DNA from: Desulfosediminicola ganghwensis | GTDB lineage: Bacteria > Desulfobacterota > Desulfobulbia > Desulfobulbales > Desulfocapsaceae | DNA length: 64,000 nucleotides | NCBI RefSeq assembly: GCF_005116675.2 | Contig: NZ_CP050699.1 | Location: 4,769,001-4,833,000 of the forward strand | Direction of reading: 5' to 3' | In this document: in pieces, positions 24,473-63,288 of the stretch | Numbering within the stretch: position 1 is the first letter of the stretch | Layout: each line of letters starts with the position of its first letter | Translations under genes and position numbers: made by a program | The notes under the pieces: model-generated | What the model was told of the DNA's origin: nothing | The model's database searches: none | What the model saw: the letters and a program-made list of their open reading frames with translations, nothing else

Positions 24473-24549
24473 GCACCCGTAGCTCAGCTGGATAGAGCAC
24501 CAGGCTTCGAACCTGGGTGTCAGGGGTTCGAATCCCTTCGGGTGTACCA
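24473..24549 (+). tRNA. tRNA-Arg (anticodon TCG), CCA encoded
   Basis: A full cloverleaf: acceptor GCACCCG/CGGGTGT with a G-U first pair, D arm GCTCAGCTGGATAGAGC, anticodon stem CCAGG/CCTGG with loop CTTCGAA (anticodon TCG, reading CGA), variable loop GTGTC region, T arm AGGGG-TTCGAAT-CCCTT, discriminator A and encoded CCA. A small GC hairpin lies just upstream (24451-24466). Its 3' half is the integration site of the island. Confidence 0.97.
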
Positions 24550-24596
24550 GATATATCAAGGACTTAGCATCAACGTGCTAAGTCCTTTTTTGTTTT
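24502..24596 (+). repeat. Left attachment repeat (attL), tRNA 3' half plus terminator
   Basis: Direct repeat of 63194-63288, offset exactly 38692 bp. It covers the anticodon arm to the CCA end of tRNA-Arg and the following hairpin terminator. Confidence 0.95.
24558..24592 (+). terminator. Rho-independent terminator of tRNA-Arg
   Basis: AAGGACTTAGCA - TCAACG - TGCTAAGTCCTT followed by TTTT; a perfect 12-bp stem. It is duplicated in attR. Confidence 0.9.
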
Positions 24597-39314: not shown

Positions 39315-40186
39315 ATGAGTAGTCCGATCCGAGACGAGTTCGTTGAACACATGAATTTTCACGGTCTCACCCATGAGACCCAGCGTGGGTACATCAGTGG
39401 GGTCAGATGCCTGGCAAAGCACTACAATCAGTCTCCGGAGAAGCTGAGCAATGATCAGGTGCGGGGCTATTTCCGCCATCTGCTGCTGGAGAAAAAACTG
39501 GCATGGAGTTCATGCAAGACCTATCTCTCAGGCATCACCTATTTCTACCGTCATATTTGCGACCGGGAGGTTGATGACCGCTTTGGCCTGCCGCCGAAAC
39601 CACGGAGCAAGAAACTACCGGCCGTACTGTCAATGGAAGAAGTAGGCCGTCTTCTGGGCTGCATTGATAACCTTAAACACCGGGTTCTGCTCAAGACCAT
39701 CTACAGCGCAGGGCTTAGAGTCGGGGAAGCTATTCGCCTCAAGCCGGAGCATATTGAAAGCGATCCGTCCAGGATGGTAATCAGGGTCCAACAGGGCAAG
39801 GGACGCAAGGATCGCTATACGGTTCTGTCCAGACAGTTGCTCCCTGAACTGCGGGCCTATTGGCAGGAGTACAAGCCCAAGCTGTGGTTGTTTCCCGGCC
39901 AGAAGCCCGGAACCCATATCAGAAGTGCTTCCGTCTCGATGATGCTCTACGCAGCTAAAAAAAAATCGGCTTAACCAGGGAATGCAGTCTCCATACTCTC
40001 AGACACAGCTTTGCCACCCACCTCCTCTATAAAGGCTACGACCTTTATACCATCAGCCAACTGCTCGGCCACAGCAACATAGAAACAACGACGATCTATC
40101 TGCATCTGGTTCCAGCCAGGTATGTCCAACTCAGGAGTCCGCTTGATCTGCTGGACGAGACAAAGGAGGGAGCAGATGAAAGATAA
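39315..40186 (+). CDS. Tyrosine recombinase of the IS91-like element, split by a -1 frameshift at A9
   Basis: The first frame (219 codons) covers the N-terminal SAM-like domain and the catalytic Arg region ([17 protein letters not shown]), then meets a run of nine A at 39956-39964 and stops at 39974. Reading back one base at that run continues [18 protein letters not shown], with the H-x-x-R motif, [16 protein letters not shown] with the catalytic Tyr, and ends at 40186, giving about 290 residues. The ribosome-binding site AAGGAGGTGCGTC is ideal. The A9 run is a classic slippage sequence, so the frameshift may be programmed, a mutation or an assembly error. The end overlaps the transposase start by 11 bases. 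Confidence 0.8.
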
Positions 40187-41360
40187 TGGCAACACACCGG
40201 AGATTTCCGATATCTTTCGCAGATATGGTAAGAAATACCGGGATATGCATGTGGTGGGATCGCAGCAATATAAGGTCATGAGACGCATCGAAATATGTCG
40301 GACCGCTGCCCTTGGAGGCCATGTCGAAGCCTGTAATCATTGCGGTTATAACCGCAACGCATATAACTCCTGCCGGGACAGACACTGTCCGAAATGCCAG
40401 ACCATGGTCAAGGAGAAATGGCTCAGTGACAGAAGGACAGAACTGCTGCCTTGCCCCTATTTTCACAACGTTTTCACTTTGCCGCATGAGCTCAATCCCC
40501 TGGTTATGGGCAATAAACACATTATGCTGACTCTGCTGTTTACCGCAGTCAAAGAAACATTGCAGGTCTTCGCCCGTGATCCGCAGTGGCGCCTTGGGGG
40601 CCAACTCGGCTTCATTTCCGTGCTTCACACATGGAATCAGAAACTCATGGACCACTACCACCTGCACTGCATCATCCCGGCAGGAGTTCTTTCATTTGAT
40701 CGTACAAGCTGGACCGGCACCAGAAGAAAATATTTATTCCGGGTTCAGTCATTGGCGAAGGAGTTCAAAAAACGCTATCTGGACAAGCTAGAAAGGGCAC
40801 ATAAGAAAAACCTCCTTTCTTTCCCTGGCAAGGTTGCAGGGCTGCAAGAGAAGAAACAGTTCCTGACGTTCATAGAAACGTTGCGTGGCAAGCAGTGGAT
40901 CACTTATGCCAAACAGCCCTTTGGTGGACCGGAACAGGTGCTCGAATATCTCGGTCGCTATACCCACCGGGTGGCAATAACCAACAACCGGATCATTGCT
41001 ATCGATGATGGCAAGGTTAGCTTCAGGTATCGGGACCGCAGCGACGACAATAAGGAAAAAGAACTTACCCTCAGTGCTGAAGAATTTATCAGGCGATTTC
41101 TCCTGCACGTGCTGCCGAGCGGCTTTACCAAAATCCGCTATTACGGCTTCCTGGCTCATGCTAACAAGAAAACCTGCATCGCTTTAATCCGCACCCTGAT
41201 CGGTTCAGACGTCAAATATACACAGAAAACAGTGGAGACCGTTCAGGAGATGATGCTGCGCTTGACCGGCATCGACATCTGCTGCTGCCCGCAGTGCGGC
41301 AAGGGAAAGCTGGTCTATCTCAGGCCGATTACCGACCTGGCTTATGATGATAGCTCCTGA
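40176..41360 (+). CDS. IS91-family transposase
   Basis: HUH-superfamily rolling-circle transposase of 394 residues. The N-terminal zinc-binding part shows [14 protein letters not shown] and RDRHCPKCQ, the HUH motif is in [11 protein letters not shown], and a Tyr-containing motif follows in [18 protein letters not shown]. The C-terminus carries another CPQCGKG zinc knuckle. The start at ATG 40176 lies in the end of the recombinase gene; an upstream in-frame ATG at 40122 is unlikely. It would move the element by single-strand transfer. Confidence 0.95.
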
Positions 41361-41650
41361 TCAGGTTTCTGTATCAGGATTTATCTAATTTCCAGATATA
41401 CCGATGTTGGATTCAACAGGATAGCTGCGTCTTGCACAGGTGAAGATTGCGAGCAAATACGTGGGTGCCATGAAAAAATATACATTTTGTCGCATAGCCA
41501 GCGTCATCAAAGACCAGTTTCGCCGGTTATGCTCGAAAGACCCGCTTCTCAATATTGCACCACGACCGATAAACAGTAATCAGGAACCGCAATTAATCCC
41601 CATAGCATAACGTTTCCGGCCACAACTCCCCCGCAGTTCAGTTCTCAAGG

Positions 41651-42120
41651 TTTATCAATAATTGCAGCATGTTTTGTTGTGAATTCAAGGACTGCCAGAG
41701 CGCAACTATTGATAAACCTATTCTGTAAATCTTCAGTCCCGCCTTGCATGATTGTGTCGTGGTATCGAACAGCATGCCTAACAACATTCATTGGTACCCA
41801 AAGGGGATACGCCAAAATCATCACTGGTTCGCAGATACAGTAGATATCTTCAGTTTGACCCTTGTTGCACACCTAAGAGATGTTCTTTGGTAATCTCTCA
41901 TTTGCAGTTACTCCAGCTCTGTGAAATTCCAAAGAAGAGAGTGGTTCTACAACTTAGGAAGCATGTACATCCAAGATTTAGACAGGGTAAGCAAAGCTTC
42001 GTTGTCGCAATTTTAATTGCGGTGCTTACCACCGCATGGGAGACGGAGTTGCCCAGAACGCAGTATTTACCAAATCATCCAGTAATCCTTTGTTATGGAA
42101 AAAGCTGAAGGTTAAACTGA
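41651..42120. other. Remnant region between IS91-like element and biosynthetic cluster
   Basis: An interrupted frame of 75 codons on the minus strand (41645-41872, start MCNKGQTEDIYC) ends right at the presumed IS border and could be the tail of a gene cut by the insertion. I recognise no family. The rest shows no gene. Confidence 0.35.
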
Positions 42121-42411
42121 AAGCATTGGGCTCATCCGGCAAACGAGTACCTGACTTTTAGACTCAGGAGTTCACATGCTTATAACCCTTATAAATAGTG
42201 GAACATTATTCCACTGAAGACAGCGTGAATTTACTGATGGATTTAGCCAGTTGCACTTTTTCCATTTCTCAGAAGAAAAAGCGTTGAGAGCCTGAAAAAA
42301 CAACGGGACAAGCAGCATTATTAAGTTGCTCCTTCAAGCGATGTTTTTTCGCTTTTTGCATAAATTCAAATAGTTGCCATAGGTACTCGTTTGCCGGATG
42401 AACCAAGCTTT
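42121..42411. repeat. Inverted-repeat-bounded 291-bp element (MITE-like)
   Basis: The 21-bp sequence TCATCCGGCAAACGAGTACC+T at 42133-42153 is repeated exactly in reverse complement at 42381-42401, and the repeats extend outward imperfectly (AAAGCATTGGG against AAAGCTTGGT). The 227-bp interior has no gene. No clear target duplication. It lies between the IS91-like element and the last gene of the cluster. Confidence 0.75.
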
Positions 42412-42423
42412 GGGGCTGGTTGT

Positions 42424-43386
42424 TTATTTACAGGTTTGGTAGCGAGTAATGTGCTGCTTCGAGTTGTAACAACAACGAGAGCAATAATCTGGTAATCCTT
42501 TGTCACTGTTTGCGCTTTGAATCACTCCTTTGACAAAAGTATGTCTGGATTTACCGAATGCGATATCAAGGATTGATTGCTCCTTGATATCGCCAAGCAC
42601 TGAACCATCACAAGCAATAACTACTCCATCGAAGCGAATGGGCAGGTCACTGTGCACGCGAAAGCATTCAAACGGATTCAGAATATAGAGAGTTGATATT
42701 TCATAGTAGGATTTGAGCTCATCGAGATTCATTTCTGGCTCAAAGATGGTGTCTGGAAATCGTTGACGGATCATGCCCAGTTGAGACCACAGTTGCACTA
42801 TATTGATGCTCCCAAGCCGGGCATTGCCAGACACGAACTTCATATGCTGAAAGCGCATCTTGGCGCCCAAGGAGTCTCCAAAAGAAGCATACTGAATTAA
42901 GTTGTTGTAGTTTTGAGGTGTTATTACCATGTTAATAATAACTTCAGTGTCGCTCAACTCCCGAAAAAACTTTATCCCTGCAACGGCTTTGGTAAAAGCC
43001 CCCCGTTTTTTTGTCAGGGTGTCATGAATATTCTCGTCGCCATGAATAGAAACTACCAGCCCTATCAAATGTTTCAAAGATTTTGCTTTGTCCTTTAAAG
43101 TTGTTCCGTTTGTGATCAAGCGGGTTGGCATATCCAGGTGCCGGAGTTTGTTTATTAACTGATCAAACCCTCGGTAGATTGTTGGCTCGCCAGAGCCTGC
43201 CAGCTTGACAACCGGTTTGGGACTCAGGGTGGCCAAATCTTCCACCAAACGCAAAAAATGCTCCAAAGGGATCTCTGCCCCTTTGCTTATAGTCCCCTCA
43301 ATGCCATGAAATGGGCAAAACAAACAGTTTCCGTTGCACCGGCTTGTCAGGTCGAGACCAATACTGCGTAATTTTAGCGTGTTCAT
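42424..43386 (-). CDS. Radical SAM protein of the biosynthetic cluster
   Basis: The Cx3CxxC-type motif is in DLTSRCNGNCLFCPFHG (Cys at about residues 17, 21, 24), binding a 4Fe-4S cluster for S-adenosylmethionine cleavage. GSGEPTIY is the SAM-binding GxEP loop. The last 80 residues have extra cysteines (CFRVHSDLPIRF, CDGSVLGD, CSRCCYN) arranged like a SPASM or twitch auxiliary cluster domain. At 320 residues it resembles enzymes of peptide or small-molecule modification. It begins 3 bases after the phosphoribosyltransferase-domain gene, so it is the last gene of the leftward operon. Confidence 0.88.
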   Translation of the reverse strand: MNTLKLRSIGLDLTSRCNGNCLFCPFHGIEGTISKGAEIPLEHFLRLVEDLATLSPKPVVKLAGSGEPTIYRGFDQLINKLRHLDMPTRLITNGTTLKDKAKSLKHLIGLVVSIHGDENIHDTLTKKRGAFTKAVAGIKFFRELSDTEVIINMVITPQNYNNLIQYASFGDSLGAKMRFQHMKFVSGNARLGSINIVQLWSQLGMIRQRFPDTIFEPEMNLDELKSYYEISTLYILNPFECFRVHSDLPIRFDGVVIACDGSVLGDIKEQSILDIAFGKSRHTFVKGVIQSANSDKGLPDYCSRCCYNSKQHITRYQTCK

Positions 43387-43389
43387 GGT

Positions 43390-45006
43390 CTAAGCATTAT
43401 ACAGGATGAGTTCGTTCAACAGGTTGTGGTAAGTCTCAACACGCTCATTTATATGTGTAGGATCAACTGCGAAATGAGAGAGTCGTGATGATATGACCAT
43501 ATAGTGATGGAGTTTCCAGGCACAATAAAATATATCAAGGGCCAATCGGTACTCTTGCGGAATAATACGGTTCAAGCGTTGTTCGAGAACGCTGTAAAGG
43601 CGTGATTTTTCGGCCCCAAGTTCAGGAAATTCAAGGGCTGCTCCGGCTAGCAGCAATAAGGCGTCTCCTCTGGGGGCATCAGTGTAGTCTTGGCAATGGA
43701 AGGCATCAAGTTTGTAGAACCCAGTATTGCTCCAACGCCAATTTTCAGCTTCAAGTTTCCAATCAATGTCTGATAGGGTGATATCCGCCATATCAATGGA
43801 TCTAGCAATGGCATTGAGTTTTTTGGCGCTATTAACTAAACTAAGTGATCCAGTAATATGGCAAGCAGCATCGAGCAGTCTTGAGCAATCGATCAAATAA
43901 TCATTAACTCTAGCCAAAGCTGGCTGTCGGAATTCGTTACTGGCAACGATGTAGTCCATAAGCAATTGCTGTTGGGGTTTGTTAAATCCGGTTAAAGGCT
44001 CTGGGCAATATCGTTGAAGCAATACCCCCCGCCCAGCTGCGACTAAAGGTGGCATAAACCCAGCCAAAGCCTTGTGGTAATGGATGGTGTCATCTCCATA
44101 GCGACCGTAACCAACAAACTTTCCAACCAATCCCCCCTCGAAATGCATTTTTGGTGATTGGTACCAGTGCAGGGTACTTTGTTTGGATAATCTAGGTGAA
44201 TCAACATGACCTGACCAATGAGTTTTGTTACAAATATTGACTTTGGTTGGCCCTAGCTTAACAAAGCTGTTTTGTAATTCTACCATTCGACGCAATGCTT
44301 CGTGACTCTCGACATGCACATTAGAACACCCTGGCAACGGGTTCATTGGGCGATGATGAATTATTGTAATATGTGCCTGTGGTGCTCTTTTGTTAAGCCA
44401 GGAACTGGTGCTTCGAAATGTAGCACCAGAACCTGGCCCCTCGTCCACCAACAGCAAATGTTGTATTCGTCGCAACTTGATTAATTCACAGTCTTGCACG
44501 TCAGACGAACTCCAGCTGGCATTACCAGTAGGTGGCCGGACTGTTAGGTAGGAACTGGCAGTTGCTGCAGCAACTGCTGGAGCCAAAATGCTACCAGCAC
44601 TACGAATGCCAACAACTAAGGTGTTTTCAGGTTCTACCTCAAGCGCGCTTGCTGTATTGAAATAATCTTCAGGTAGCACACCAAAATGCACCAAGCATTC
44701 AGGTATTTTAACCTGAGTCGGGTTATACTTGATGAACTCCAGCAATGGCTTGATGGGCAACTCTTCAAAAGTAGGCTCAACTGAACTGCCAAACAGCGTC
44801 GCAGCATATCTGGTGACTTGGGTGCGCCAATCGACAAGAGACAGTGGTTCTGTGGTTAGACATGCCGAATCAGCCAAAGCTTGTTCAAGTCCACAGGCCA
44901 CTCTATAAACTTCTTCATGATCCTGTCTCTGCCAGGCTGACCGGTAGTTTTCGAGGGCTTGACCTGCGTTCTCGAAAACATACAAAGATTCATTAAAAAG
45001 ATTCAT
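43390..45006 (-). CDS. Phosphoribosyltransferase-domain protein
   Basis: A protein of 538 residues (ATG 45006; a TTG at 45021 is an alternative and both overlap the decarboxylase gene). The centre has a type I phosphoribosyltransferase fold: NTLVVGIRSAGSILAPAVAA (loop I, about 130-150) and HLLLVDEGPGSGATFRSTS (PRPP-binding loop, about 185-205; the usual D-D is D-E). The C-terminal 270 residues are unassigned and mostly helical. This may use PRPP to make a nucleotide or a phosphoribosylated intermediate. Its place in the cluster suggests the sugar-phosphate or base-transfer step. Confidence 0.75.
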   Translation of the reverse strand: MNLFNESLYVFENAGQALENYRSAWQRQDHEEVYRVACGLEQALADSACLTTEPLSLVDWRTQVTRYAATLFGSSVEPTFEELPIKPLLEFIKYNPTQVKIPECLVHFGVLPEDYFNTASALEVEPENTLVVGIRSAGSILAPAVAAATASSYLTVRPPTGNASWSSSDVQDCELIKLRRIQHLLLVDEGPGSGATFRSTSSWLNKRAPQAHITIIHHRPMNPLPGCSNVHVESHEALRRMVELQNSFVKLGPTKVNICNKTHWSGHVDSPRLSKQSTLHWYQSPKMHFEGGLVGKFVGYGRYGDDTIHYHKALAGFMPPLVAAGRGVLLQRYCPEPLTGFNKPQQQLLMDYIVASNEFRQPALARVNDYLIDCSRLLDAACHITGSLSLVNSAKKLNAIARSIDMADITLSDIDWKLEAENWRWSNTGFYKLDAFHCQDYTDAPRGDALLLLAGAALEFPELGAEKSRLYSVLEQRLNRIIPQEYRLALDIFYCAWKLHHYMVISSRLSHFAVDPTHINERVETYHNLLNELILYNA

Positions 45007-46603
45007 TTGTATTTTCTGCAAGTGGATGATGCACCTTTAACTTTACAGGTCCTATGCCAATACCAGTTACCACATCGTGCACCTTACAGATGTATTCAAT
45101 GAACTCGTCAACATCCTCAGTAGTTATATTTGGGGTACATATATAGGTTTTTAGTGCTGATGTCTTTACGGCGACAGTTCCAGTGGACATTGCTGGTAGA
45201 ATGTCAATCAGATAGTGATTTTCTTCGCAACAGCGGCTTAAAATAGCGCGGGTCGCTTGCTCGTTCAATTCATTAGAGCCTAAATCAGTTGTAAAGACCG
45301 AAGCAAAACCAGGAGTGTCTGAATTGTGAACGACGAAGCGGTTGACCGATGCTAGTCTTTTGCGCATGTAAAGTGCGGTTTCAGTGATCTTGGCTAAAAT
45401 AGAGCGAAATCCTACAGTGCCCAGTTCATATAGAGCAACCGCTCCGCCAATAGCTGCTTGACCCGGTCGACTGTTTTCGATAGTGTATGTGTAAGCTGAA
45501 TATTCGTTGGAAGGAATGGGCTCAGATTTCATTCCAAAATCAACTCTATCTTTAATCATAAAAATTGAGGATGCATAGGGACAGAAACCGGTTTTGTGAA
45601 AATCAGCTCCGAAAGAATCAGCTGCGTCGATGGTTGCGATTTGAGAAGAGATCCGTTTGAGCCGTTCAGCTACCTCCTCAGTTAGCGCCATAGGGTTGAT
45701 TTCCCAATCGTAAGAGGCGAAAAATAACCAGGGCCATCCAACAACTGCGTCGATATGGATATGCGGTTTATAATTGAGTTCGTGGCGTTTAACAAAGTCA
45801 TCGCGTACTTCGACCAATTGCCCAATAGGATCCACATCGAGATCAATTGTGCTACCGCCCGTTAGAATTATTGTAGCTACGCGTTGTCCTGCTTTGTGCA
45901 CCCGTTCAAGCTCAATATCAAGAGTCTCGGGTTCCAGATAACCACAAGGACCAACAGGAACACGAATGCAGCGTTTGCGGCCTATACCTGAGAGCTCTGT
46001 GTCAACAATGTGGCATGGATGTCCCTTGGTTGTCGAGAGTACTACAAGATCCGACGGCACTCCGTTATCTTGGGCTTCGGGTGCTGCTTTGCGAACACCT
46101 GCACGAATGCCATAGAGGTTAGTTCCCTTGCCGCCGAATACGAATGCACCACCAGCTCTTTCTACATCCCAACCAGCAAGGGTTGCAAGAGTCCTAATGA
46201 CATCAAGTTCAGCTTGAGCAGCATTCCCAGAAGCAATGTCCCATGCTAAGTTGGGATTGTACAGTGAACTTAACGCCTGTGCCGCGACTACAGTTAGTAG
46301 TGGCGGAGGGGTTACATTAAGCATAACTCTAGGGGAATGCCACCTAACAGCACCTCCAAAATAAGATGCGGTCCGTTCAATCACCGCTTCTTTGCTCGAA
46401 ATCTGCTCTTGTAAAAGGTTTTCCCCTTCGTATTGTGGTCGTCCCCCTTTTAGTGTGGCTCTATCCGCATCTATTGTCGGTTGTATAGTCCGATGAATCC
46501 TTTGCATTTGCTCAACAAGAGAATCGATTTCGTCTGAATTTTCATTCAGAAACAAAGAGGAAAGTTCTGGATAATTTGGCGAAGGTGGTCTGTTTTGATT
46601 CAA
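44993..46603 (-). CDS. PLP-dependent group II decarboxylase-like enzyme
   Basis: Fold-type I PLP enzyme of the glutamate/tyrosine/aromatic amino acid decarboxylase superfamily, 536 residues. Seen: a G-G-T-like phosphate loop (FVFGGKGTNLYGIRAG, about 160-175), HIHIDAVVGWPWL (Asp contacting the pyridine nitrogen), and DSFGADFHKTGFCPYASS with the PLP-binding Lys (about 345). It starts at TTG 46603 with AGGAG six bases upstream. Such enzymes make amines or act in other PLP chemistry. The substrate cannot be inferred. The gene end overlaps the next gene's start. Confidence 0.88.
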   Translation of the reverse strand: MNQNRPPSPNYPELSSLFLNENSDEIDSLVEQMQRIHRTIQPTIDADRATLKGGRPQYEGENLLQEQISSKEAVIERTASYFGGAVRWHSPRVMLNVTPPPLLTVVAAQALSSLYNPNLAWDIASGNAAQAELDVIRTLATLAGWDVERAGGAFVFGGKGTNLYGIRAGVRKAAPEAQDNGVPSDLVVLSTTKGHPCHIVDTELSGIGRKRCIRVPVGPCGYLEPETLDIELERVHKAGQRVATIILTGGSTIDLDVDPIGQLVEVRDDFVKRHELNYKPHIHIDAVVGWPWLFFASYDWEINPMALTEEVAERLKRISSQIATIDAADSFGADFHKTGFCPYASSIFMIKDRVDFGMKSEPIPSNEYSAYTYTIENSRPGQAAIGGAVALYELGTVGFRSILAKITETALYMRKRLASVNRFVVHNSDTPGFASVFTTDLGSNELNEQATRAILSRCCEENHYLIDILPAMSTGTVAVKTSALKTYICTPNITTEDVDEFIEYICKVHDVVTGIGIGPVKLKVHHPLAENTNESF

Positions 46604-46615
46604 GCGTGGCTCCTG

Positions 46616-47566
46616 TTAGGTGATCGAATTTTTATTTATATTTTTGAAAATATAACTGAGTCTATCGAGGGCTTCGTTTACTGAAGTTGTGCAAAAAGCT
46701 AATTTAGTCCAATAATTCTTGTGCGACAGTAAGGATTCGATGAGGTTTATAGCCTGGTACAGTCCTTTGGCTTTAAAAAAATCACTTCTATACTCTTCGG
46801 GTAGACCGTACCCATCAAGGATAGCTGATTGTAGACACTCCGTTTGGCTTGAAGAAAAACCAATGTAACAGGCGATGTTCTCTAAAACTAACTCTTGGTG
46901 TCTTAATCCTGGCCTAATGTTTTCGAAATCTAAGACTGCTCTTACTGTTGTTGATGACGTGACAATGTTCTTATCTTGGTAATCTCCGTGTAATATTCCA
47001 TAATCCAACCCTTCCATGTCAGAGTTCTCGATTATGGTCCTAGCCTCACGCAATGTCCTGGCCAGAGCTGTTTCTCGAGGTATTTCAAAGAGAGTTTCAT
47101 TAACTAGTGCCAATAATCTATCACTTAGGGCCTCAGCTGTTTCCGCTGACAATTTGCTTGGTTTTCGTAAGGTATTTAAACCTTTGTGTATCTTCTTCAA
47201 CTCTCTCCCAAGTTCATAGACGAGTTGCTTTGACGCAACGCCCTTCAAGTAAGCTGAATGTCGTAAGTCTTTACCACCAACCAGTGAAGTCAAAAGCCAA
47301 GGCACACTAGATTCACAGCCAGCAGCTAAAACAAGGGGGACAGCTGCGCCATGCGAAGATGCCAAATTAAAGCCAGACATTTCAATGTCTCGCCTGTCCA
47401 TAACCTCTCCCAGGATGTAGAGCTTCAGAATGTGGTCTTCGCCAAGCCTATACACCAAATTTAAGGTGCCAGCTGTAATTAGCGTACAAGTGCGAGAGTC
47501 AATAGAGCGAGCATACAAAACGCTATTTAGCACTTTATTTGCTCTTTCAATTTCAACTCTTTTCAT
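46616..47566 (-). CDS. Aminoglycoside phosphotransferase/choline kinase-like enzyme
   Basis: 316 residues from ATG 47566; a longer reading into the UbiA gene adds 53 unlikely residues. The protein-kinase-like fold shows the nucleotide-binding N-lobe and the catalytic loop YGILHGDYQDKNIVTS (His-Gly-Asp-x-x-x-x-Asn), then AVLDFENIRPG with the metal-binding Asp. Small-molecule kinases of this kind phosphorylate sugars, choline, amino alcohols or cyclitols. It begins five bases after the UbiA-family gene and ends 12 bases before the decarboxylase gene. Confidence 0.88.
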   Translation of the reverse strand: MKRVEIERANKVLNSVLYARSIDSRTCTLITAGTLNLVYRLGEDHILKLYILGEVMDRRDIEMSGFNLASSHGAAVPLVLAAGCESSVPWLLTSLVGGKDLRHSAYLKGVASKQLVYELGRELKKIHKGLNTLRKPSKLSAETAEALSDRLLALVNETLFEIPRETALARTLREARTIIENSDMEGLDYGILHGDYQDKNIVTSSTTVRAVLDFENIRPGLRHQELVLENIACYIGFSSSQTECLQSAILDGYGLPEEYRSDFFKAKGLYQAINLIESLLSHKNYWTKLAFCTTSVNEALDRLSYIFKNINKNSIT

Positions 47567-47571
47567 CACCG

Positions 47572-48477
47572 TCAAATAGTCCTCAACTTGCTGAAAGATA
47601 GCAAGAAAACGCCGTAAACTAACATTGCAACCCCCGTTAATTCGATATAACCAATAACTATAGCTGTAGCAAGATGAATAGCAGCAACTCTGCAGTACCA
47701 GATGTAACTGAACTCTGCTCGCCACTGCTTGTGATAATTGTTTAGTTTCAGCAATATCAATGCCAAAACTAAGAACGTCGCCACAATATCCAAGCCGTAA
47801 GAAATCCCGATACTGATAATATAAAGTGCTGTGGATAGCACTAGCAGCAGATTGGCATGATTTACAGCCACAGTTGATCCTATCCGAACTGCGTATGTGC
47901 GTATGTTACTAAGTTTGTCCTGTTTCTCATCTTTGGTTGTATGTCCAATCTCAGCCGAGAGGCCATACAATGCCACTGAGAACCAAGTTAACCATGGTAT
48001 AAACCCAGAATCAATGACAAGGAGCAGTGGGTAACCAGCGACCAAAAGAAAGGAAGCAACAGCAGGACCCAATATACTCTCTTTGAATCTGAAGCCACCT
48101 ACGGACTGATTATAGAGAAACCACATCGTAGAATAGACAATATGAAAAGGCAAGAATGTGAGGTCCACAATCACAATTACCACAACAGACAGCATAGACA
48201 GACATAAAGTCCAAAGCCAAGCAAATACAGGAGCAATATGACCAGCTGTCAATGGATTCTTTTCAGAGACATCACTATAACGATCGCAGAGATTATTATG
48301 GATATAACCAGCTATGCTTATCAAAACGTAGGCAACCAGCAGTTGGAGGTTTCTTGATCCAAACTGTTGGCTGGCTATAAGGATCAGTGAAGCAAATAGT
48401 AGTTGGTAAAGGTAAACACGGGCACCGTTATGCAGCCTCATTAGATGTAGCCAGTTATTGTCCCTTAACATGTTCAT
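47572..48477 (-). CDS. UbiA-family prenyltransferase
   Basis: An integral membrane protein of 301 residues with 8-9 hydrophobic segments. Both Asp-rich motifs are present: IHNNLCDRYSDVSEKNPLT (first NxxxDxxxD) and GHTTKDEKQDKLSNIRT (second DxxxD). UbiA enzymes transfer a prenyl chain to an aromatic or other acceptor, or link a phosphoribosyl group to polyprenyl phosphate. ATG overlaps the upstream radical SAM gene by 4 bases. The acceptor here is unknown, but the decarboxylase and kinase genes beside it suggest an amine or sugar-phosphate intermediate. Confidence 0.88.
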   Translation of the reverse strand: MNMLRDNNWLHLMRLHNGARVYLYQLLFASLILIASQQFGSRNLQLLVAYVLISIAGYIHNNLCDRYSDVSEKNPLTAGHIAPVFAWLWTLCLSMLSVVVIVIVDLTFLPFHIVYSTMWFLYNQSVGGFRFKESILGPAVASFLLVAGYPLLLVIDSGFIPWLTWFSVALYGLSAEIGHTTKDEKQDKLSNIRTYAVRIGSTVAVNHANLLLVLSTALYIISIGISYGLDIVATFLVLALILLKLNNYHKQWRAEFSYIWYCRVAAIHLATAIVIGYIELTGVAMLVYGVFLLSFSKLRTI

Positions 48478-49583
48478 GATTGTAGGCGTTCATCGAGAAA
48501 AGGGCAGGTTGGATCCATCACAAGTGGGTTGCCATACCTCTCGTATGACATAAGTCGACACCCTCCTTTGCAGACAGATAAGAAGTCGCAGTTCGCGCAA
48601 AGCTCTGGTGTTTTCTCGAAAATATCTAACACAGGTTGGTGGCCTATGGCTGTTGCTAAGGGAGTCTTTAATAGGTTACCCATGTCGAAATAGGGTAATG
48701 AGGATGCGTTGCAGCAACCCGTATAATGACCTTTCGGATTGACAACCCCTCTTCCCGGATCTTTTAGCTGTTGACATTTCTTTTCTTCAAGAAACATATT
48801 CGGGTGTTGACCAAATTGCTCGCTAATGTCATCGTAACGTCCTTGGTGCATAAGGAAAACCTTTTGGGTTTGAAGAAGATTGAATAATACCAGGGTATTT
48901 GTTGGTGTTGAGCGCTGCATTGTCAACGCTTTTTCCAGTAATGCGACGAATTTTTCGTGAAAGATCTTGATACCATTAGTCTTGGCCCTGCTGATCTCAC
49001 GAACAGGGGTAAAACGAATTAGATTGATACCCAACCTTTCTACAAATTCTATCGCTGGAATGACGTCTTCGAGGGTCTGTTCCATGATTACGAAGTTGAT
49101 ATGAACTGGTATGCGATTGATAGCCAAACCAAGATTTTTTTCTATTTTAGAAAAACTGGCACCTCGCCGTACATTTTCAAACACTTTAGGGGTAACACCA
49201 TCCAGGGATAGCCAGGCGGTCACACCATAGTGCTCCAACATTGAGATTTTACGATCACTCAAAGCAGTTCCATTAGTAGTCACGACCAACTTGTTGTTTT
49301 CTACTGCCTCGAATAACGCACTTGGTGTATCAAACCCCTTAGTTAGTTGCTTGAATAGCTTTTGATCTTTTGGGTATTTCGATCGAACCATAGCAAGGAG
49401 CTCTTCAATCCCTTGATAAAGCAAAGGTTCCCCCCCTGCCAAAACTATCTTTGTTTCCTGAGGGTAGAACGCTTTCAAGATATTTTTCCAGTTTTCTACA
49501 TCTAGGTCTCTGCTTCGGTCATTAATTCGTATACAATGAATACAATTCAAATCACATTTGTTTGTCAGGTCAAAAGTTGTCAA
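48474..49583 (-). CDS. Radical SAM/SPASM-domain protein, first gene of the cluster
   Basis: The Cx3CxxC motif is in TNKCDLNCIHCIRI (about residues 10-17), with LAGGEPLLY as the SAM-binding loop. A C-terminal SPASM region has ELCANCDFLSVCKGGCRLM and a last Cys in DPTCPF, the usual set for two auxiliary 4Fe-4S clusters. The start is TTG 49583 with AGGTG upstream; an upstream in-frame stop excludes a longer reading. SPASM proteins typically modify peptides (as in PqqE, anaerobic sulfatase maturation) but some act on small molecules. No obvious precursor gene is adjacent apart from a 15-residue frame upstream. Confidence 0.87.
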   Translation of the reverse strand: MTTFDLTNKCDLNCIHCIRINDRSRDLDVENWKNILKAFYPQETKIVLAGGEPLLYQGIEELLAMVRSKYPKDQKLFKQLTKGFDTPSALFEAVENNKLVVTTNGTALSDRKISMLEHYGVTAWLSLDGVTPKVFENVRRGASFSKIEKNLGLAINRIPVHINFVIMEQTLEDVIPAIEFVERLGINLIRFTPVREISRAKTNGIKIFHEKFVALLEKALTMQRSTPTNTLVLFNLLQTQKVFLMHQGRYDDISEQFGQHPNMFLEEKKCQQLKDPGRGVVNPKGHYTGCCNASSLPYFDMGNLLKTPLATAIGHQPVLDIFEKTPELCANCDFLSVCKGGCRLMSYERYGNPLVMDPTCPFLDERLQS

Positions 49584-49650
49584 AGTTCACACCTAAGGCT
49601 ATAATCAGCGATGCTGACAATCGTCGTGGATAATGGGCTATTCTTGAAGG

Positions 49651-49698
49651 CTATGGGTAAAAGTTATTCATTATCTTCTTTCTTAAATCATTTCTCAT
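49651..49698 (-). CDS. Possible short peptide upstream of the radical SAM gene
   Basis: Fifteen residues (MRNDLRKKIMNNFYP) ending 67 bases before the radical SAM start. It would suit a leaderless precursor or leader peptide, but an AGGGGG ribosome-binding site is too far (about 13 bases) and such frames occur by chance. Confidence 0.15.
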   Translation of the reverse strand: MRNDLRKKIMNNFYP

Positions 49699-50827
49699 AA
49701 TCACATCCATTCCCCCTATGCATATTCAAATCAAGAAAGATAATTGATTTAAATAGTTATTCTACACTTATTATTTAAAAAAACATTTCTGTTGATTGGA
49801 CAGACCTTCCCCTGTGACATTATAAATCCAAACACCTTGACCTACAGCGATACATTTTACTGCGCTGGTAGAGGTTAGAAATGACAAGGTTAATCGCTTC
49901 AGAAACACTGTAACTTAGGACTGCTACTGTTTCTTGAAAATCGTTTTGTTTTCAGAGCCTAACATTAAACTGCCTGCCTGGACCATGACCTTATCCATGA
50001 ACAGCTTTACCTGAGTTGTGTGGGGCAGAGTTGAGGTGTTTCCTGATTACCCAGAACTTGGGCTACCGCCGTTTCAGACAGGGCAACCAATGAAAGGTTG
50101 CTCCATTTCTGACGATGCCGATGCACGATAATACTTTCTTATATGCCATCTCCGTTCCCACCCTCGACCACTTCCGGGAACAGCCGACTCCCCTTGCTCT
50201 CCAGTTTCGGCAAAACCCACTCTCCCTGGTCGATCTTCTCTTTGCCCTGTAAGGCACAGGATTTTCTGCAGGCGACAGGCACCAGGTCTGGACAATGCAC
50301 CTGGTGCCGCCTTTCACCGAGAAGGAAGATGTTATCACTAGGCTTGATCCAATTGCCGCAGATGTCACACTTGTCGATTATCACTACCTTCTAAATCATC
50401 CTGGTTCTCCTTTCCGTGCAGATATCCCCGGGTCGAGTTGTAGTTGATCTTCGCCAGCACGGCCTATAGAAAGTCTGAAATCTCCTCATCCTTAGGGAAA
50501 AAGCCATTACACTCGATGAGGTCAGGGATGCCTCGCCTGCCTTCTTGAATGTTGCTATGAACGTTGCCTCGGTCACTGAGGTTGCACTAACTCCTTGTGC
50601 TGCCGTAATTCTCCCCAATCAGTAGTGACAGTATCTGCAAGATACTGTCGTGTTATCAATCACGACGCCTGACATCTCGGTTCAAACTGGCGAGTAACGA
50701 TTATTTGGTATTTTCTCCGCGTTCGATAGAAGAAATCTGCTCTAGCATGCTAACCCTGTTTCTGCATATCCTAACAAAATTCCGTCTTGTTAATATGACC
50801 TACATGTTGTAAACATCATTGACATAG
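49699..50827. other. Degenerate region with small interrupted frames
   Basis: Low gene density. On the minus strand 50391-50620 reads NLSDRGNVHSNIQEGRRG, then IPDLIECNGFFPKDEEISDF, a stop, and AVLAKINYNSTRGYLHGKEN, which looks like decayed coding sequence. 50139-50384 (GTG start) has a CDICG ... H-x-x-x-C zinc-finger-like beginning and is described next. Otherwise no gene. Confidence 0.4.
50139..50384 (-). CDS. Small hypothetical protein with possible zinc-finger start
   Basis: 81 residues from GTG 50384: DKCDICGNWIKP then HQVHCPD and a basic/acidic tail. The CxxC...HxxxC arrangement could bind zinc. No family recognised and the ribosome-binding site is poor; it may belong to decayed sequence. 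Confidence 0.3.
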   Translation of the reverse strand: MIIDKCDICGNWIKPSDNIFLLGERRHQVHCPDLVPVACRKSCALQGKEKIDQGEWVLPKLESKGSRLFPEVVEGGNGDGI

Positions 50828-51055
50828 CTAAATCAAGAACTGGTTTATGAAGTATTCTTTACCGAGGGAGTTGATTTATACGGTGGGACTCGACACAGTT
50901 CAGCTATAGTTCTTAGGGAGCATTTTACACCTGAGCAAATCAAGCAGGGGACTATGCATAAAATCAATAAAGCTTTTGAAAGGTATTATCGAGTTGGTTC
51001 AGATGATATTCGTGTGATTTACCAAAAAAATTCTGAAAGGAAAATATCCTTTTAA
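50828..51055 (+). pseudogene. C-terminal remnant of a tyrosine recombinase
   Basis: The frame reads LVYEVFFTEGVDLYGGTRH, SSAIVLREHFTPEQIKQG and MHKINKAFERYYRVGSDDI, then IRVIYQKN. The TRHSSA stretch and the later RYY correspond to box II His/Arg and the nucleophile region of phage-type integrases. A stop lies directly upstream and the N-terminal domain is absent. It lies just before the KAP-type gene. Confidence 0.7.
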
Positions 51056-51109
51056 AAAACAACCACAGATAATAAATAACCTAAATACTATAACATCTAT
51101 CCCCTCACC

Positions 51110-53959: not shown

Positions 53960-56900
53960 ATGGCAAAGGACTTTGAAGACCTAAAAAAATGGGTATTAAG
54001 TCTTGATGTGCAGGATGTATTCGATCTCTCAAAAAACCAGGGCCTCTCTGGCAAGAGCAAAAATATCGCCTACAACAGTGCGAAGAGGCTCCAGTCTGGC
54101 AATGTACCCTCCTACAAGCAGATAAAAGCGCTACATCGCATCTGTGCTGGCTTGCACAGTAAGTCCCTGGCAGAAAGGAATAGCCATGACGGCGATCTTG
54201 CCGCTCATGCACACACCGAAGCACCGGACATCGACATCAAACACCTCTGCCTGCGCATGGCCTGGCATGACAACCGTTGGAACGGGACCATATGCAAAGA
54301 AGCCGCCAAGAACGACTACTGTGTTGGTGAATATTCCCTCCTTTCGGATCGAATTCGGCGTCGCCGCGATCTGGAGATTGAAACACAACCTGGTTGCGCT
54401 GGCTGTAAGGCAGACACCTCTGAGCTTGGCCAGTACCAGCCGCCATGCTTTTGGTCCATAAACGCCTTTGGTCCAGAGCCACTGACCTTTAAGCACGATA
54501 ATCCGGTCGCTGCGGATTTCCCTTTTATCGATGAGTCGCTACCACCATATTCTGTAATTTCATGGCCATTTAAGTTGTCCTTCGTTAAGAACGAGGAAGA
54601 GAAAAAAAAATACGCTGGTAACTACTATCCAAAGAAAATCTTCGAAAACAGAATCCGTCTGTTTCAACGCAATGTCCGCCCTGCGGAAAGTGTTGTCTTC
54701 ACGTACTGCAATTATAGCAATCCTGTCTCCGGCGAGGAGATGAAATATCTCGTGACCGGCTGTGCGTTGCTCGTTGAGCAGGGCGAGCCACAGTATTTTG
54801 ACATCAGTGCGGAGACGCTCGCGAACAAGGCAGCACAACTGAAGCAGCCAAATTTTCCATCGATGAACTGGGCGCTACGGTATACACTTGATGTGGAGGA
54901 TACAGGGGTTCGCATTCCCTACCATGAGTATCTGGATTTACTCGCAAGAGAAGGAGGCGTTGGAGAGGAGCTTCTGAATGAGATCGCGGTAACGATTGAC
55001 GAGCCGGAGCTACGCGATGGCTTTACCTATGTTGCAAAGCATATTGATGATGATCAGGCTATCTACCTTTTGACCAAGATCCGGCGCAGCCTCCTCAAGG
55101 TTAAAGAGCATGAAGTTATAGATACCTCACAAATACATGCACAGCTCGGCAGAATCGAAGAGCTAATCGCTCACACTTGGGATAAACGAGGTTATCAACC
55201 GGGGCTTAAGAACCTGTTGCTAGCAATACCCGGCGTACGAGAAAACTACGAAATAAGGGTATCCGAGCTTGTCGAGAGCATTGACCGCTCAGCCGAGGAA
55301 GACGTGAAAGACCTGATGGCTGCATTTGCCGGAGAGCAGAGCGCTCTTGGCGATCAGTTCGGTGACCTTCTGTCTGAGGTGCAGGATTTCATGTACGAGC
55401 AAGATCTCACCGCAAAGAACATTGCGCGCCTGGCCAGTCTAAATTTGACGGTCCATCAGTTTGCTCGAATTAGTGGTAAGGAGGGCATTCGGCATTCACT
55501 AAGAGAGATCTGCGAGAACCCCTACCTGCTTTTTGAGAACTACCAACCTGGGCAAGAGCTTGAGGCCTCACTGTCAGGCGAGAAAATCGACGGCCCCATC
55601 GATCTGTTAAAGATCGATCTGGCGCTTCTGCCGCTTGTGAAGTATCAGCATCGCGTTAAGGAGCTCCATGATCTAAGGGCAACAGATCACCGGCGTCTGC
55701 GAGCCGTGGTGATCGAGATCTTGAGAAATAGGGAATATAGCGGGGATTGCTTCCTTGATGTAGACGAAATCATCGAAGAGGCTGAGTCCTATTCCCTCTT
55801 TTACAAGGCAGATACGCCGTACTCTGTGGACCGGCATCTCAAGGAACCGAAGGAGGAGGCAGAAAAGCACTTTCAGGAAAAGCTGGTTATGCGTCGTGTC
55901 GATGGCCGCACGTTCTACTACCTGAAGGAATTGTACGACGATGAGTTGTTCGTCCGGCAATTCATCCTCGATCTTATCGAACGATCTGATCACGCTAAGT
56001 CCGCCAAGGCACTTGAGGCGGATATTCCATCTGCCATCACGGCACTTGGCAAAAAAATCGGCCCCAGGTTTGATGCCGCACTGTTTCAGGCGGAACGGGA
56101 GCATCTTTACAGCCTTGTCGCATCCAAGTCGTTTTTCGTCATCACCGGATTACCTGGCGCGGGAAAGTCTTATGAACTCCTTAAACTCATCGAGTTTTTC
56201 CGCTCCCAGCGCGAGACGCATCGTGTCCTGTCGTTCACTGGAAAGGCAGTGATTAGACTAAAGAATAACGAAGAAGCAATTGCGTCAGTTGATGCAAAGA
56301 CCATCGACAAGTTTCTGACAGAAGCAGAGAGTACCAAGGCGCAAGCGGCTACGAGCGTGATTCATAACCTCATTATTGATGAGGCGTCCATGGTAGACCT
56401 TCCGAAGCTTGCGGCACTGCTGCGTAATATCGAAAAAAAACATCTCAATCGGCTGATTTTGGTTGGCGATCCGAACCAGCTCCCTCCTATCGGTTTTGGA
56501 AAGCCGTTTTCTGACATTGTCGAAATGATGACTGAGGACCCGGAGGCACTAGGGGATTACGGTGTAAAGCTTGAAGTCAATTGCCGGGCGGAGATGAACG
56601 ATGAGTTTATCGGGTTCTCGAAAATATTTTCTAATGAAAGCAAGTTCGCAGAAGGCTATCTCGCTCAGACTGCACACGAGGACCATATCTGCGGCGGGAA
56701 TGTCGAGCTGGTGTTCTGGTCCTCACGAAAAGAGCTGCGAAAAAAGCTTGATGACAAGGTTGCAGAGCTCCTGCGCAAAGAAGGATTTAACCGAGCGGAG
56801 CTGCCACGATTCTTGGGCATTGACAGCGCAACGACCAAACCCAGCGACCTAGAGCGTTTTCAAGTACTTACGCCGTACCGGAACGGTTATTTCGGATCAT

Positions 56901-57820
56901 CAGGCGTCAACCTGTTTTTCCAGGATGAGCTTAGACCGAAGGCTGAACTGTCTGAGAAGATAGGAGAAAAAGTCTTCAAGCTTTACGATAAGGTGATGCA
57001 TACCCAGAACGAGTACAGGGGGGACGAACTGGTCGTGTCTAATGGCTCTTTGGGGTCGATACTCAAAGGCGGCCGTGTGTTCTTTCTTGAGCGTGATATG
57101 CCATTGAAGATCAGCTCTCTTCGCACGTCAAATGCACTTGAGCTGGCGTATGCGATCACTGTCCATAAATCCCAAGGCAGCGGATTTAACCATGTCTTCA
57201 TCGTGTTGCCGGAAAAGGCAATATACTCCCATCGGGAGCTGCTCTACACTGCTTTAACCCGAGCTAGAAACCAGGTCACTTTGCTGATCCAGCAGGGCGG
57301 GGAGATACCCAATGTCCCATCCTTTTTGAATAAAATTAGGTCTCGAAGTGCAGTCATCGGCAGAAGGACCAGTCTATTCTCTGAGGGTGGCGAGCGGTAC
57401 GCTTACATGCCCGATGAGGGCGTTATCGTTAAGAGTCGGGTTGAATACATCATCTATCGCAAACTTCTCGATGCTCGTGAGAAACATGGGACCTTTTCGT
57501 TTAACTACGAGAACACCTATGATGTCAAAGGGCAGCCCTTTGATATTCATCCGGATTTCGAGATTCGATTTTCTGACGAGCGCGTCGTCTACTGGGAGCA
57601 TTTGGGCCTAGTGACTAGCAAGTCATACATGAGCGATTGGGATAAGCGCCGAAAAATCTACGAGAACCAACAGGATTTTGACAAGGTACTGACTACAGAT
57701 GAACTGCGCGGTATTAGTGACGAGAAAATCGAGGAGATCATTGAAAAGATGGTCATGAACGACCTGGTCTCAGAAGATGACTCCGATCGCTATTCGAAAA
57801 TGCATTTTTCCCTCAGATAG
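53960..57820 (+). CDS. Large RecD-like SF1B helicase with C-terminal PD-(D/E)XK-like domain
   Basis: A 1286-residue protein. The N-terminal 160 residues include a region LCLRMAWHDNRWNGTICKEA (about 95-114) followed by cysteines (YC, GCAGC), a Trp-rich Cys motif I have seen described in large defence-type helicases but cannot name. SF1B core: Walker A ITGLPGAGKSYEL (about 728-740), Walker B NLIIDEASMVDL (about 802-813), VGDPNQLPP and a C-terminal UvrD-type motif AITVHKSQGSGF with LYTALTRAR. After it, SRVEYIIYRKLL...HPDFEIRF...VVYWEHLGL (about 1140-1215) resembles a PD-(D/E)XK nuclease. The fusion suggests DNA end processing, perhaps anti-phage. Confidence 0.85.
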   Translation: MAKDFEDLKKWVLSLDVQDVFDLSKNQGLSGKSKNIAYNSAKRLQSGNVPSYKQIKALHRICAGLHSKSLAERNSHDGDLAAHAHTEAPDIDIKHLCLRMAWHDNRWNGTICKEAAKNDYCVGEYSLLSDRIRRRRDLEIETQPGCAGCKADTSELGQYQPPCFWSINAFGPEPLTFKHDNPVAADFPFIDESLPPYSVISWPFKLSFVKNEEEKKKYAGNYYPKKIFENRIRLFQRNVRPAESVVFTYCNYSNPVSGEEMKYLVTGCALLVEQGEPQYFDISAETLANKAAQLKQPNFPSMNWALRYTLDVEDTGVRIPYHEYLDLLAREGGVGEELLNEIAVTIDEPELRDGFTYVAKHIDDDQAIYLLTKIRRSLLKVKEHEVIDTSQIHAQLGRIEELIAHTWDKRGYQPGLKNLLLAIPGVRENYEIRVSELVESIDRSAEEDVKDLMAAFAGEQSALGDQFGDLLSEVQDFMYEQDLTAKNIARLASLNLTVHQFARISGKEGIRHSLREICENPYLLFENYQPGQELEASLSGEKIDGPIDLLKIDLALLPLVKYQHRVKELHDLRATDHRRLRAVVIEILRNREYSGDCFLDVDEIIEEAESYSLFYKADTPYSVDRHLKEPKEEAEKHFQEKLVMRRVDGRTFYYLKELYDDELFVRQFILDLIERSDHAKSAKALEADIPSAITALGKKIGPRFDAALFQAEREHLYSLVASKSFFVITGLPGAGKSYELLKLIEFFRSQRETHRVLSFTGKAVIRLKNNEEAIASVDAKTIDKFLTEAESTKAQAATSVIHNLIIDEASMVDLPKLAALLRNIEKKHLNRLILVGDPNQLPPIGFGKPFSDIVEMMTEDPEALGDYGVKLEVNCRAEMNDEFIGFSKIFSNESKFAEGYLAQTAHEDHICGGNVELVFWSSRKELRKKLDDKVAELLRKEGFNRAELPRFLGIDSATTKPSDLERFQVLTPYRNGYFGSSGVNLFFQDELRPKAELSEKIGEKVFKLYDKVMHTQNEYRGDELVVSNGSLGSILKGGRVFFLERDMPLKISSLRTSNALELAYAITVHKSQGSGFNHVFIVLPEKAIYSHRELLYTALTRARNQVTLLIQQGGEIPNVPSFLNKIRSRSAVIGRRTSLFSEGGERYAYMPDEGVIVKSRVEYIIYRKLLDAREKHGTFSFNYENTYDVKGQPFDIHPDFEIRFSDERVVYWEHLGLVTSKSYMSDWDKRRKIYENQQDFDKVLTTDELRGISDEKIEEIIEKMVMNDLVSEDDSDRYSKMHFSLR

Positions 57821-60945: not shown

Positions 60946-61199
60946 TAACAATTCCCTCCCTGATAATTCTCAAGCAGCCAATCGATCAGGTTATCAACCG
61001 GATATCCTACCTGCTTACCAAGCTGGAACTTGCCGTCTGGGCCAGTACCCTGGCTGTCCCTGTTTCTGAGGGTGTTGGCAGCGATCATACCGCCGGTGAA
61101 CTTCGGTACCTCTTTGCGTGCAATGAAAGTGGTAGGCCAGCTTTCACCTGCCTCTCTGAGGATCGTTTCCAAGAAATCTTTGTTCTGTTTAAGTCTCAT
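60945..61199 (-). CDS. AlpA/MerR-type helix-turn-helix protein, probable excisionase or regulator
   Basis: From ATG 61199 with GGAG five bases upstream the product has 84 residues. The stretch RKEVPKFTGGMIAANTLRNR followed by DSQGTGPDGKFQLGKQVGYP matches the wHTH of AlpA-like proteins and excisionases (R-x-E-V-P ... T-G-G ... T-L-x-N-R-D). A longer reading to 61310 lacks a clear start signal. It is co-transcribed with the primase gene and near the integrase, so it likely controls excision or early gene expression. Confidence 0.8.
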   Translation of the reverse strand: MRLKQNKDFLETILREAGESWPTTFIARKEVPKFTGGMIAANTLRNRDSQGTGPDGKFQLGKQVGYPVDNLIDWLLENYQGGNC

Positions 61200-63193: not shown

Positions 63194-63288
63194 AGGCTTC
63201 GAACCTGGGTGTCAGGGGTTCGAATCCCTTCGGGTGTACCATATATATCAAGGACTTAGCATCAACGTGCTAAGTCCTTTTTTGTTTT
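63194..63288 (+). repeat. Right attachment repeat (attR), tRNA-Arg 3' half
   Basis: Copy of 24502-24596 with one mismatch. It starts inside the anticodon stem, so it does not make a tRNA by itself. The terminator hairpin is retained. Confidence 0.95.

Follow-up and report, generated by a model that had tools for sequence, protein, structure and literature searches.

Several described pathways draw on enzyme families that also meet at the locus considered here. In psilocybin-type biosynthesis, decarboxylation makes an amine that is then O-phosphorylated by a kinase resembling the aminoglycoside phosphotransferases (APH). In hopanoid (HpnH) and archaeal-lipid pathways, a joint logic of radical S-adenosylmethionine (SAM) and UbiA enzymes applies: the radical SAM enzymes alter the head groups of isoprenoid lipids. 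UbiA enzymes are membrane proteins that either attach an isoprenoid chain to a head group or transfer phosphoribose onto a polyprenyl phosphate. These systems serve as analogies only; they use partly different families and show no gene correspondence with our subject, a six-gene operon of Desulfosediminicola ganghwensis. The operon lies in a stretch of 64,000 nucleotides (nt) from contig NZ_CP050699.1 (assembly GCF_005116675.2, positions 4,769,001 to 4,833,000). This stretch is the window, and positions refer to it unless another locus is named. The genes, A to F, encode a radical SAM protein, a UbiA-family prenyltransferase, a small-molecule kinase, a pyridoxal phosphate (PLP)-dependent decarboxylase, a protein that reads as a phosphoribosyltransferase (PRTase) fold joined to a kinase fold, and a second radical SAM protein.

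Closer comparisons exist for single genes and for one gene pair. LicA, the choline and ethanolamine kinases, and the APH enzymes share their fold with the C-terminal half of E and their family with C; they carry the usual HxDxxxxN catalytic loop, from which the loop of E departs. The best phmmer relatives of D among the loci that we fetched are group II decarboxylases from E. albertii, Plesiomonas, and Polymorphobacter and from plasmids of Brevibacillus, Melissococcus, and Enterobacter. They share the catalytic Lys, His, and Asp of D and are 24-28% identical to it over the alignment; none of nine neighbourhoods read, some with GadC or an aminotransferase, has the other five genes. A UbiA gene and a radical SAM gene that resemble B and F form a pair in two genomes of the same phylum (G036 and G389), with an overlap of 4 nt or a gap of at most 15 nt. 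Unlike the operon, this pair has no decarboxylase, kinase, or PRTase relative nearby.

We tentatively read the locus as an operon that is intact, was acquired horizontally, and makes a small metabolite other than a ribosomal peptide. Sequence or fold shows the genes and their order, the catalytic motifs, the division of E into two domains, and the borders of the surrounding island. An orphan pathway of this kind would be self-contained and sharply delimited: 7 kb and six enzymes with intact active-site motifs, carried on an island. In addition, E appears to expose an unmodelled fusion family of PRTase and choline-kinase folds, whose reaction would bear both on the operon and on a widespread glycan-type cluster.

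Organisation and enzyme families of the operon

Six complete minus-strand open reading frames (ORFs), recognised from the ORF list and from reading of the sequence, fill 42424-49583 in the transcription order A to F. Neighbouring genes overlap by up to 29 nt or stand up to 12 nt apart, in agreement with a preliminary description of this DNA, which had proposed a single operon. A and B overlap by 4 nt (ATGA). B and C overlap by 4 nt (TTGA) if C starts at TTG 47575, or stand 5 nt apart if it starts at ATG 47566; the longest ORF of C, with its start at 47725, would give a 154-nt overlap, which most likely arises only from choosing the first start codon. C and D are separated by 12 nt, and E and F by 3 nt. 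D and E overlap by 29 nt (TTG 45021) or 14 nt (ATG 45006), and the homologues of E start at a position matching the latter. Ribosome-site-like sequence precedes the TTG starts of A and D; in A, AGGTG lies ahead of the TTG and an in-frame stop close upstream. The G+C content of third codon positions (GC3) is 0.36-0.48 in the operon genes, against 0.52-0.63 in six hand-picked flanking chromosomal genes.

The nearest long genes on either side of the operon are on the plus strand. Upstream, two short overlapping ORFs on the minus strand occupy 50063-50384; the one of 81 amino acids (aa) has no Pfam match. The candidate promoter listed in Table 1 is weak evidence, because the region holds 13 such sites, fewer than the shuffled mean of 18.0.

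All six genes retain catalytic motifs of their families. The radical SAM motif CxxxCxxC stands at residue 10 of A and residue 17 of F. A has a second motif, CxxCx5Cx3C, at 329, and F has further cysteines at C241, C259, C302, and C305. Pfam Radical_SAM scores are 70 bits for A and 63.5 bits for F, both above cut-off; for the Pfam SPASM model (cut-off 21.5), A falls under at 17.6 bits and F passes at 27.9. A also passes the NCBIfam SPASM-domain model TIGR04085 (35.7 bits, cut-off 27). B holds both Asp-rich motifs, NNxxDxxxD and DxxxD...TxAxxxG, as NNLCDRYSD and DEKQDKLSNIRTYAVRIG. C holds HGDxxxxN and DFE. In D, the catalytic Lys337 sits in DFHK, and K337, H195, and D285 are invariant across 10 sequences; the closest relatives found are about 24-35% identical.

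The names of A, B, C, D, and F in the preliminary description stand, all five being over their Pfam cut-offs. Its label for E, a phosphoribosyltransferase-domain protein, is incomplete, because E reads as a fusion of PRTase and choline-kinase-like parts. More specific identities were sought in NCBIfam, among all matching families for B to E, the best 25 of 66 for A, and the best 25 of 48 for F. Among the families compared, no cut-off is passed by any of the six proteins except that of the generic SPASM-domain model for A. Models for viperin, MoaA, PqqE, NirJ, and the maturases of ribosomally synthesised and post-translationally modified peptides (RiPPs) all score far beneath their cut-offs. 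D matches five equivalogs, every one far under cut-off (e.g., diaminobutyrate (DABA) decarboxylase, 48.5 against 900). We rejected B as a decaprenyl-phosphate phosphoribosyltransferase (DPPR synthase; NF008977, 18.3 bits against a cut-off of 234).

Table 1. Positions of the operon genes and of other features of the window.
Feature	Coordinates	Strand	Basis or remark
Gene A, radical SAM protein with C-terminal SPASM-type cysteines	48474..49583	-	First operon gene, TTG start
Gene B, UbiA-family membrane prenyltransferase	47572..48477	-	PF01040, 60.6 bits (cut-off 34.2)
Gene C, APH/choline-kinase-family small-molecule kinase	46616..47566 (start maybe 47575; ORF list 47725)	-	PF01636, 73.2 bits
Gene D, group II PLP-dependent decarboxylase	44993..46603	-	PF00282, 32.4 bits (cut-off 27)
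Gene E, reads as PRTase fold plus choline-kinase/APH fold	43390..45021 (likely start ATG 45006)	-	Loop, alignment, fold searches
Gene F, radical SAM protein with shorter SPASM-type C-terminal region	42424..43386	-	Pfam and motifs
Candidate sigma-70-like operon promoter	49670-49698	-	9/12 consensus matches
tRNA-Arg and left attachment repeat	tRNA 24473-24549; repeat 24502-24596	+	Repeat takes in the 3' end of the tRNA
Right attachment repeat, 95 nt	63194-63288	+	1 mismatch to left copy
Tyrosine integrase	61779-63035	-	PF00589, 99.4 bits
Short tyrosine recombinase; IS91-type Y2 transposase	39315-39974; 40122-41360	+	3' side of operon

Gene E and its family

E reads as a divergent member of an unmodelled family in which a PRTase fold is fused to a choline-kinase/APH fold, an assignment that leans on predicted structures, a loop motif, and alignments. 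The loop for phosphoribosyl pyrophosphate (PRPP), VDEGPGSGAT, is in place. Against the Pfam PRTase model E scores 12.7 bits, below the cut-off of 26.3; it has no kinase match in Pfam or NCBIfam and no PHROG match. For the structural model of E (predicted local distance difference test (pLDDT) 75.6), the best Foldseek match is choline/ethanolamine kinase 3dxq (E-value 2.2e-3, probability 1.00), and many PRTases, including APRT/XGPRT, follow with probabilities of 0.97-1.00 and E-values of 7.6e-3 or weaker. The model of a relative from Sinorhizobium kostiense (L045, 9650-11404) reaches a pLDDT of 93.1 and has 54 fold matches at E-value <= 0.001, with LicA choline kinase 4r77 as the best (5.4e-8). 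Its 50 best PDB matches are choline, ethanolamine, and homoserine kinases, aminoglycoside and spectinomycin phosphotransferases, and one ytaA-titled chain. This relative has no Pfam match (E-value <= 1e-3) and no NCBIfam match (E-value <= 1e-10).

Alignment with its relatives shows similarity over the entire protein, beyond the PRTase part. By tblastn, distant relatives are found in rhizobia and, among 395 genomes of the phylum of the host (E-value <= 1e-3), in four genomes other than its own. A search of a collection of 84,980 species with the sequence of E alone gave no match; a scan with a family profile gave 70 relatives from 113 pattern matches, in about twenty named genera. The profile has six rows and the scan was seeded by one 10-residue pattern, so relatives without this pattern are missed. 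Members occur in rhizobia, Methylobacterium, Sphingomonas, Myxococcota (Myxococcus), and Deltaproteobacteria.

From 65 proteins of 500-700 aa we aligned 54 with E. E matches the family in its two-domain length and PRPP loop, and 27 columns are invariant across the 55 rows. They include D188-G194 of that loop and, in the C-terminal half, D415, K432, and H437; D434 is conserved in 54 rows. Conserved members are favoured in this alignment, because all rows were found via one conserved pattern. Identity between E and the 54 relatives is 18-25%, and its PRPP loop is one residue shorter than in the five relatives first aligned.

E is a divergent family member placed in a different gene context: the relatives inspected lie in glycan-type clusters and E in a six-enzyme operon. 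By clustering of ORFs, the 76 loci of relatives, a few of which represent the same place twice, hold glycosyltransferases, a glycosidase-like protein (42 loci), methyltransferase-like proteins (24), a nucleotidyltransferase-like protein (16), and a PIG-L-type protein (15). These neighbour names come from our own reading of the sequences, with no database match behind them.

A proposed route and its competitors

The favoured reading, an operon for a small non-ribosomal metabolite, can be given a conditional route. It is reasoned from enzyme families, and the substrates, order of steps, product, and role are all inferred. A phosphorylated amine or amino alcohol is proposed because the decarboxylase stands beside choline-kinase-type enzymes, and two separate modules of this type support it: C, by Pfam, and the C-terminal half of E, by fold. 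D would turn an amino acid into an amine or amino alcohol by decarboxylation, and C would phosphorylate this product as choline or ethanolamine kinases do, as the kinase half of E probably would too. The PRTase half of E would transfer 5-phosphoribose from PRPP; because a PRPP-using domain is fused to a kinase-fold domain, phosphorylation and phosphoribosylation on one enzyme are suggested. In the membrane, B would attach an isoprenoid chain and so tether the amine or ribosyl head group to a lipid. The radical SAM enzymes A and F would carry out changes based on C-H chemistry: an oxidation, an epimerisation, or a C-C bond. In support of the reading, a simple motif scan found an adjoining radical SAM gene at two of 17 UbiA loci (35 genomes had matches). 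In its most specific form, the route would lead to a new lipid-linked class of natural products, in which an amine is O-phosphorylated and phosphoribosylated by a bifunctional E, prenylated by the UbiA enzyme, and cross-linked or oxidised by the radical SAM enzymes, perhaps to serve as a signal or as an antiphage or antibacterial agent, encoded on a mobile island next to candidate defence genes. We regard this specific form as improbable.

Several observations weigh against the reading and its route. For E, the fold search with its own model returned nothing at E-value <= 0.001, and the scores were modest. The 50 best PDB matches of the Sinorhizobium model include no PRTase; because they are kinases only, the PRTase half is argued from the weaker model of E together with the loop. 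The kinase half carries N422 where 51 of the 55 aligned rows have Glu and lacks some family-consensus residues, and profile comparison detected no sequence relation between it and C. None of the other five genes has a relative at the loci of the E relatives (E-value <= 1e-3), and because those examined belong to glycan-type clusters, E may act on a sugar instead of an amine. That B prenylates an amine is a guess, because UbiA members also use quinones and precursors of haem and chlorophyll. Beyond the genome itself, at most two of the six genes have relatives at any of 162 fetched loci; several of these loci overlap and represent one place more than once, and a further 15 from the same genome were set aside. 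The set turned up in no other genome, which leaves linkage by selection unproven.

The searches behind this result covered 1,994 genomes cumulatively, a count that exceeds the distinct number since many recur between searches. Whole-genome searches used A, B, D, and E, without C and F, and every search with a negative outcome was a sample or a pattern-seeded scan. A has one weak match beyond its own genome in 168 genomes (E-value <= 1e-8). B matches 10 other genomes among 395 and 25 among a further set of 398 (E-value <= 1e-3), at 21-35% local identity; wider DNA was obtained for 18 of these 35 genomes. D matches 37 of 257 genomes of its class, its own included (E-value <= 1e-3), none of the others closely (best 2.5e-10). 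In 369 genomes of another class it has two matches (E-value <= 1e-10; 35% and 34% local identity), neither of them in such a six-gene cluster. Queried with all six proteins, plasmids returned five records for E, 95 for D, five for A, and 23 for F, and no match for B or C; we inspected the surroundings of three, 10, and four of the records for E, D, and F. The 95 records for D (E-value <= 1e-5) are all below 60% identity, and nine annotated neighbourhoods hold GadC (three), an aminotransferase (three), or neither (three); a tenth region carries no annotation. Around F relatives, four plasmid regions carry recombinases, transposases, or unrelated genes. Phages, queried with B, D, and E, gave two distant matches, both to D; viral contigs, queried with A, B, D, F, and the E profile, gave one short radical SAM match, to F only.

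The sole two-gene combination in the 162 loci is UbiA with radical SAM, in four records from two genomes of one genus. In two of the records (L157:7194-9080 and L159:7290-9262), the pair is followed by large membrane-protein-like genes and additional radical SAM-like genes, by our reading. Unlike F, the radical SAM gene at L157 lacks a Pfam SPASM match. The preliminary description had raised conservation of the gene set in other genomes as a point to check. These loci give it no support, and no close orthologue of any of the six genes was found in the genomes searched either. Because of the latter, the missing synteny cannot separate a rare pathway from a chance gathering.

Such a gathering is the first competing explanation: island enzymes brought together by chance, or a decaying remnant, with no joint pathway. 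The absence of the set from every other locus examined fits it, as do the IS91-type transposase directly 3' of the operon and the unrelated contexts in which the inspected relatives lie (those of D, E, B, and F). Against it, all six frames are open with catalytic motifs intact, and gene overlaps of the ATGA kind are usually a sign of translational coupling inside an established operon. We judge chance assembly unlikely, though not negligible.

A modified quinone-like or tetrapyrrole-like cofactor is a somewhat weaker candidate and rather unlikely. Here the UbiA enzyme would prenylate an aromatic ring, and the radical SAM proteins would catalyse steps like those of PqqE, NirJ, or Ahb. UbiA relatives do work on quinone rings and haem, and A and F show weak similarity to the NCBIfam models of PqqE, NirJ, and AhbC/D, with scores that are all far under the cut-offs. 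To our knowledge, neither a PRTase-kinase protein nor a group II decarboxylase is part of a quinone or tetrapyrrole pathway.

A RiPP, a ribosomal peptide matured by the radical SAM/SPASM enzymes and carrying a decoration made or attached by the products of the remaining four genes, is a doubtful alternative. A carries a SPASM-type cysteine set, its weak family matches include the peptide maturases WgkB and DynA, and short ORFs lie nearby. Only one of the short ORFs outside the six genes in 41361-51109 has a clear ribosome site: a 48-aa ORF at 42318, directly 3' of F, inside an inverted-repeat element of probable transposon kind. Further short ORFs upstream of A have no clear ribosome site, and none with such a site lies between A and the next gene. 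None of the six proteins matches a PqqD or RiPP recognition element (RRE) family (Pfam, E-value up to 0.1), and A, with its cysteine motif nearly at the start, leaves no space for an N-terminal RRE. The modified peptide suggested in the preliminary description is disfavoured, as this 48-aa ORF is the only short one with such a site in or beside the operon. A viperin-like defence operon, making a modified nucleotide with the kinase and PRTase as suppliers of nucleotide substrates, is similarly improbable: weak pVip profile matches for both radical SAM genes and candidate defence genes on the same island (PDC-S68, a weak PDC-S49, and a UvrD/GajB-like gene) speak for it, but F and A score 37.5 and 36.7 bits against the viperin model NF038283 (cut-off 180), below MoaA-type models, B, C, D, and E have no PADLOC match at E-value <= 0.01, and we know of no role for UbiA or a PLP decarboxylase in viperin systems.

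The earlier statement that no described pathway is known for this set is uncontradicted by the NCBIfam families compared and, as far as titles and abstract openings go, by the literature, where no paper that we found describes the six enzymes together. Judged on the same parts of the texts, papers combining radical SAM and UbiA concern, among the matches listed, archaeal lipids, vitamin K2, annotation networks, and Rhodobacter. The one on annotation networks (PMC5445326) also holds the term phosphoribosyltransferase, and searches combining further enzyme terms of the set gave no paper.

The island and its other genes

The operon lies within an integrative island at a tRNA-Arg gene, in line with the preliminary description, which had placed it on a mobile island; at the level of sequence, the direct repeats, the integrase, and a shift in composition confirm it. 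The 95-nt repeat consists of the 3' 48 bases of the tRNA and 47 bases downstream, and its two copies, which differ by one mismatch, enclose an island of 38.7 kb (24502-63288). The integrase gene starts 158 bp from the right copy. In 2-kb windows, GC content lies at 0.47-0.53 up to 24 kb, falls to 0.38-0.48 over 24-54 kb, and stands at 0.50 and 0.49 at 54-58 kb. The tRNA end recurs in three further genomes of the same genus; the 600 bp that flank the island on its right were not found in them, so these genomes do not show an empty site.

Just 3' of F, two 24-nt inverted repeats (42129-42152 and 42381-42404) lie 228 nt apart. We rejected this element as a multi-copy miniature inverted-repeat transposable element (MITE): the 24-nt arm occurs once elsewhere in the genome and the whole element nowhere else.

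Elsewhere on the island, 53960-57820 is a candidate defence gene, PDC-S68 (PADLOC, 1615.6 bits), and the gene at 51110-53008 matches PDC-S49 weakly (27.1 bits) and also PHROG 4740 (145.7 bits). A UvrD helicase has GajB matches, the best at 133.3 bits. Near the integrase end, 58327-60951 encodes a DUF3987 protein with an N-terminal PrimPol match, perhaps the replication protein of the island.

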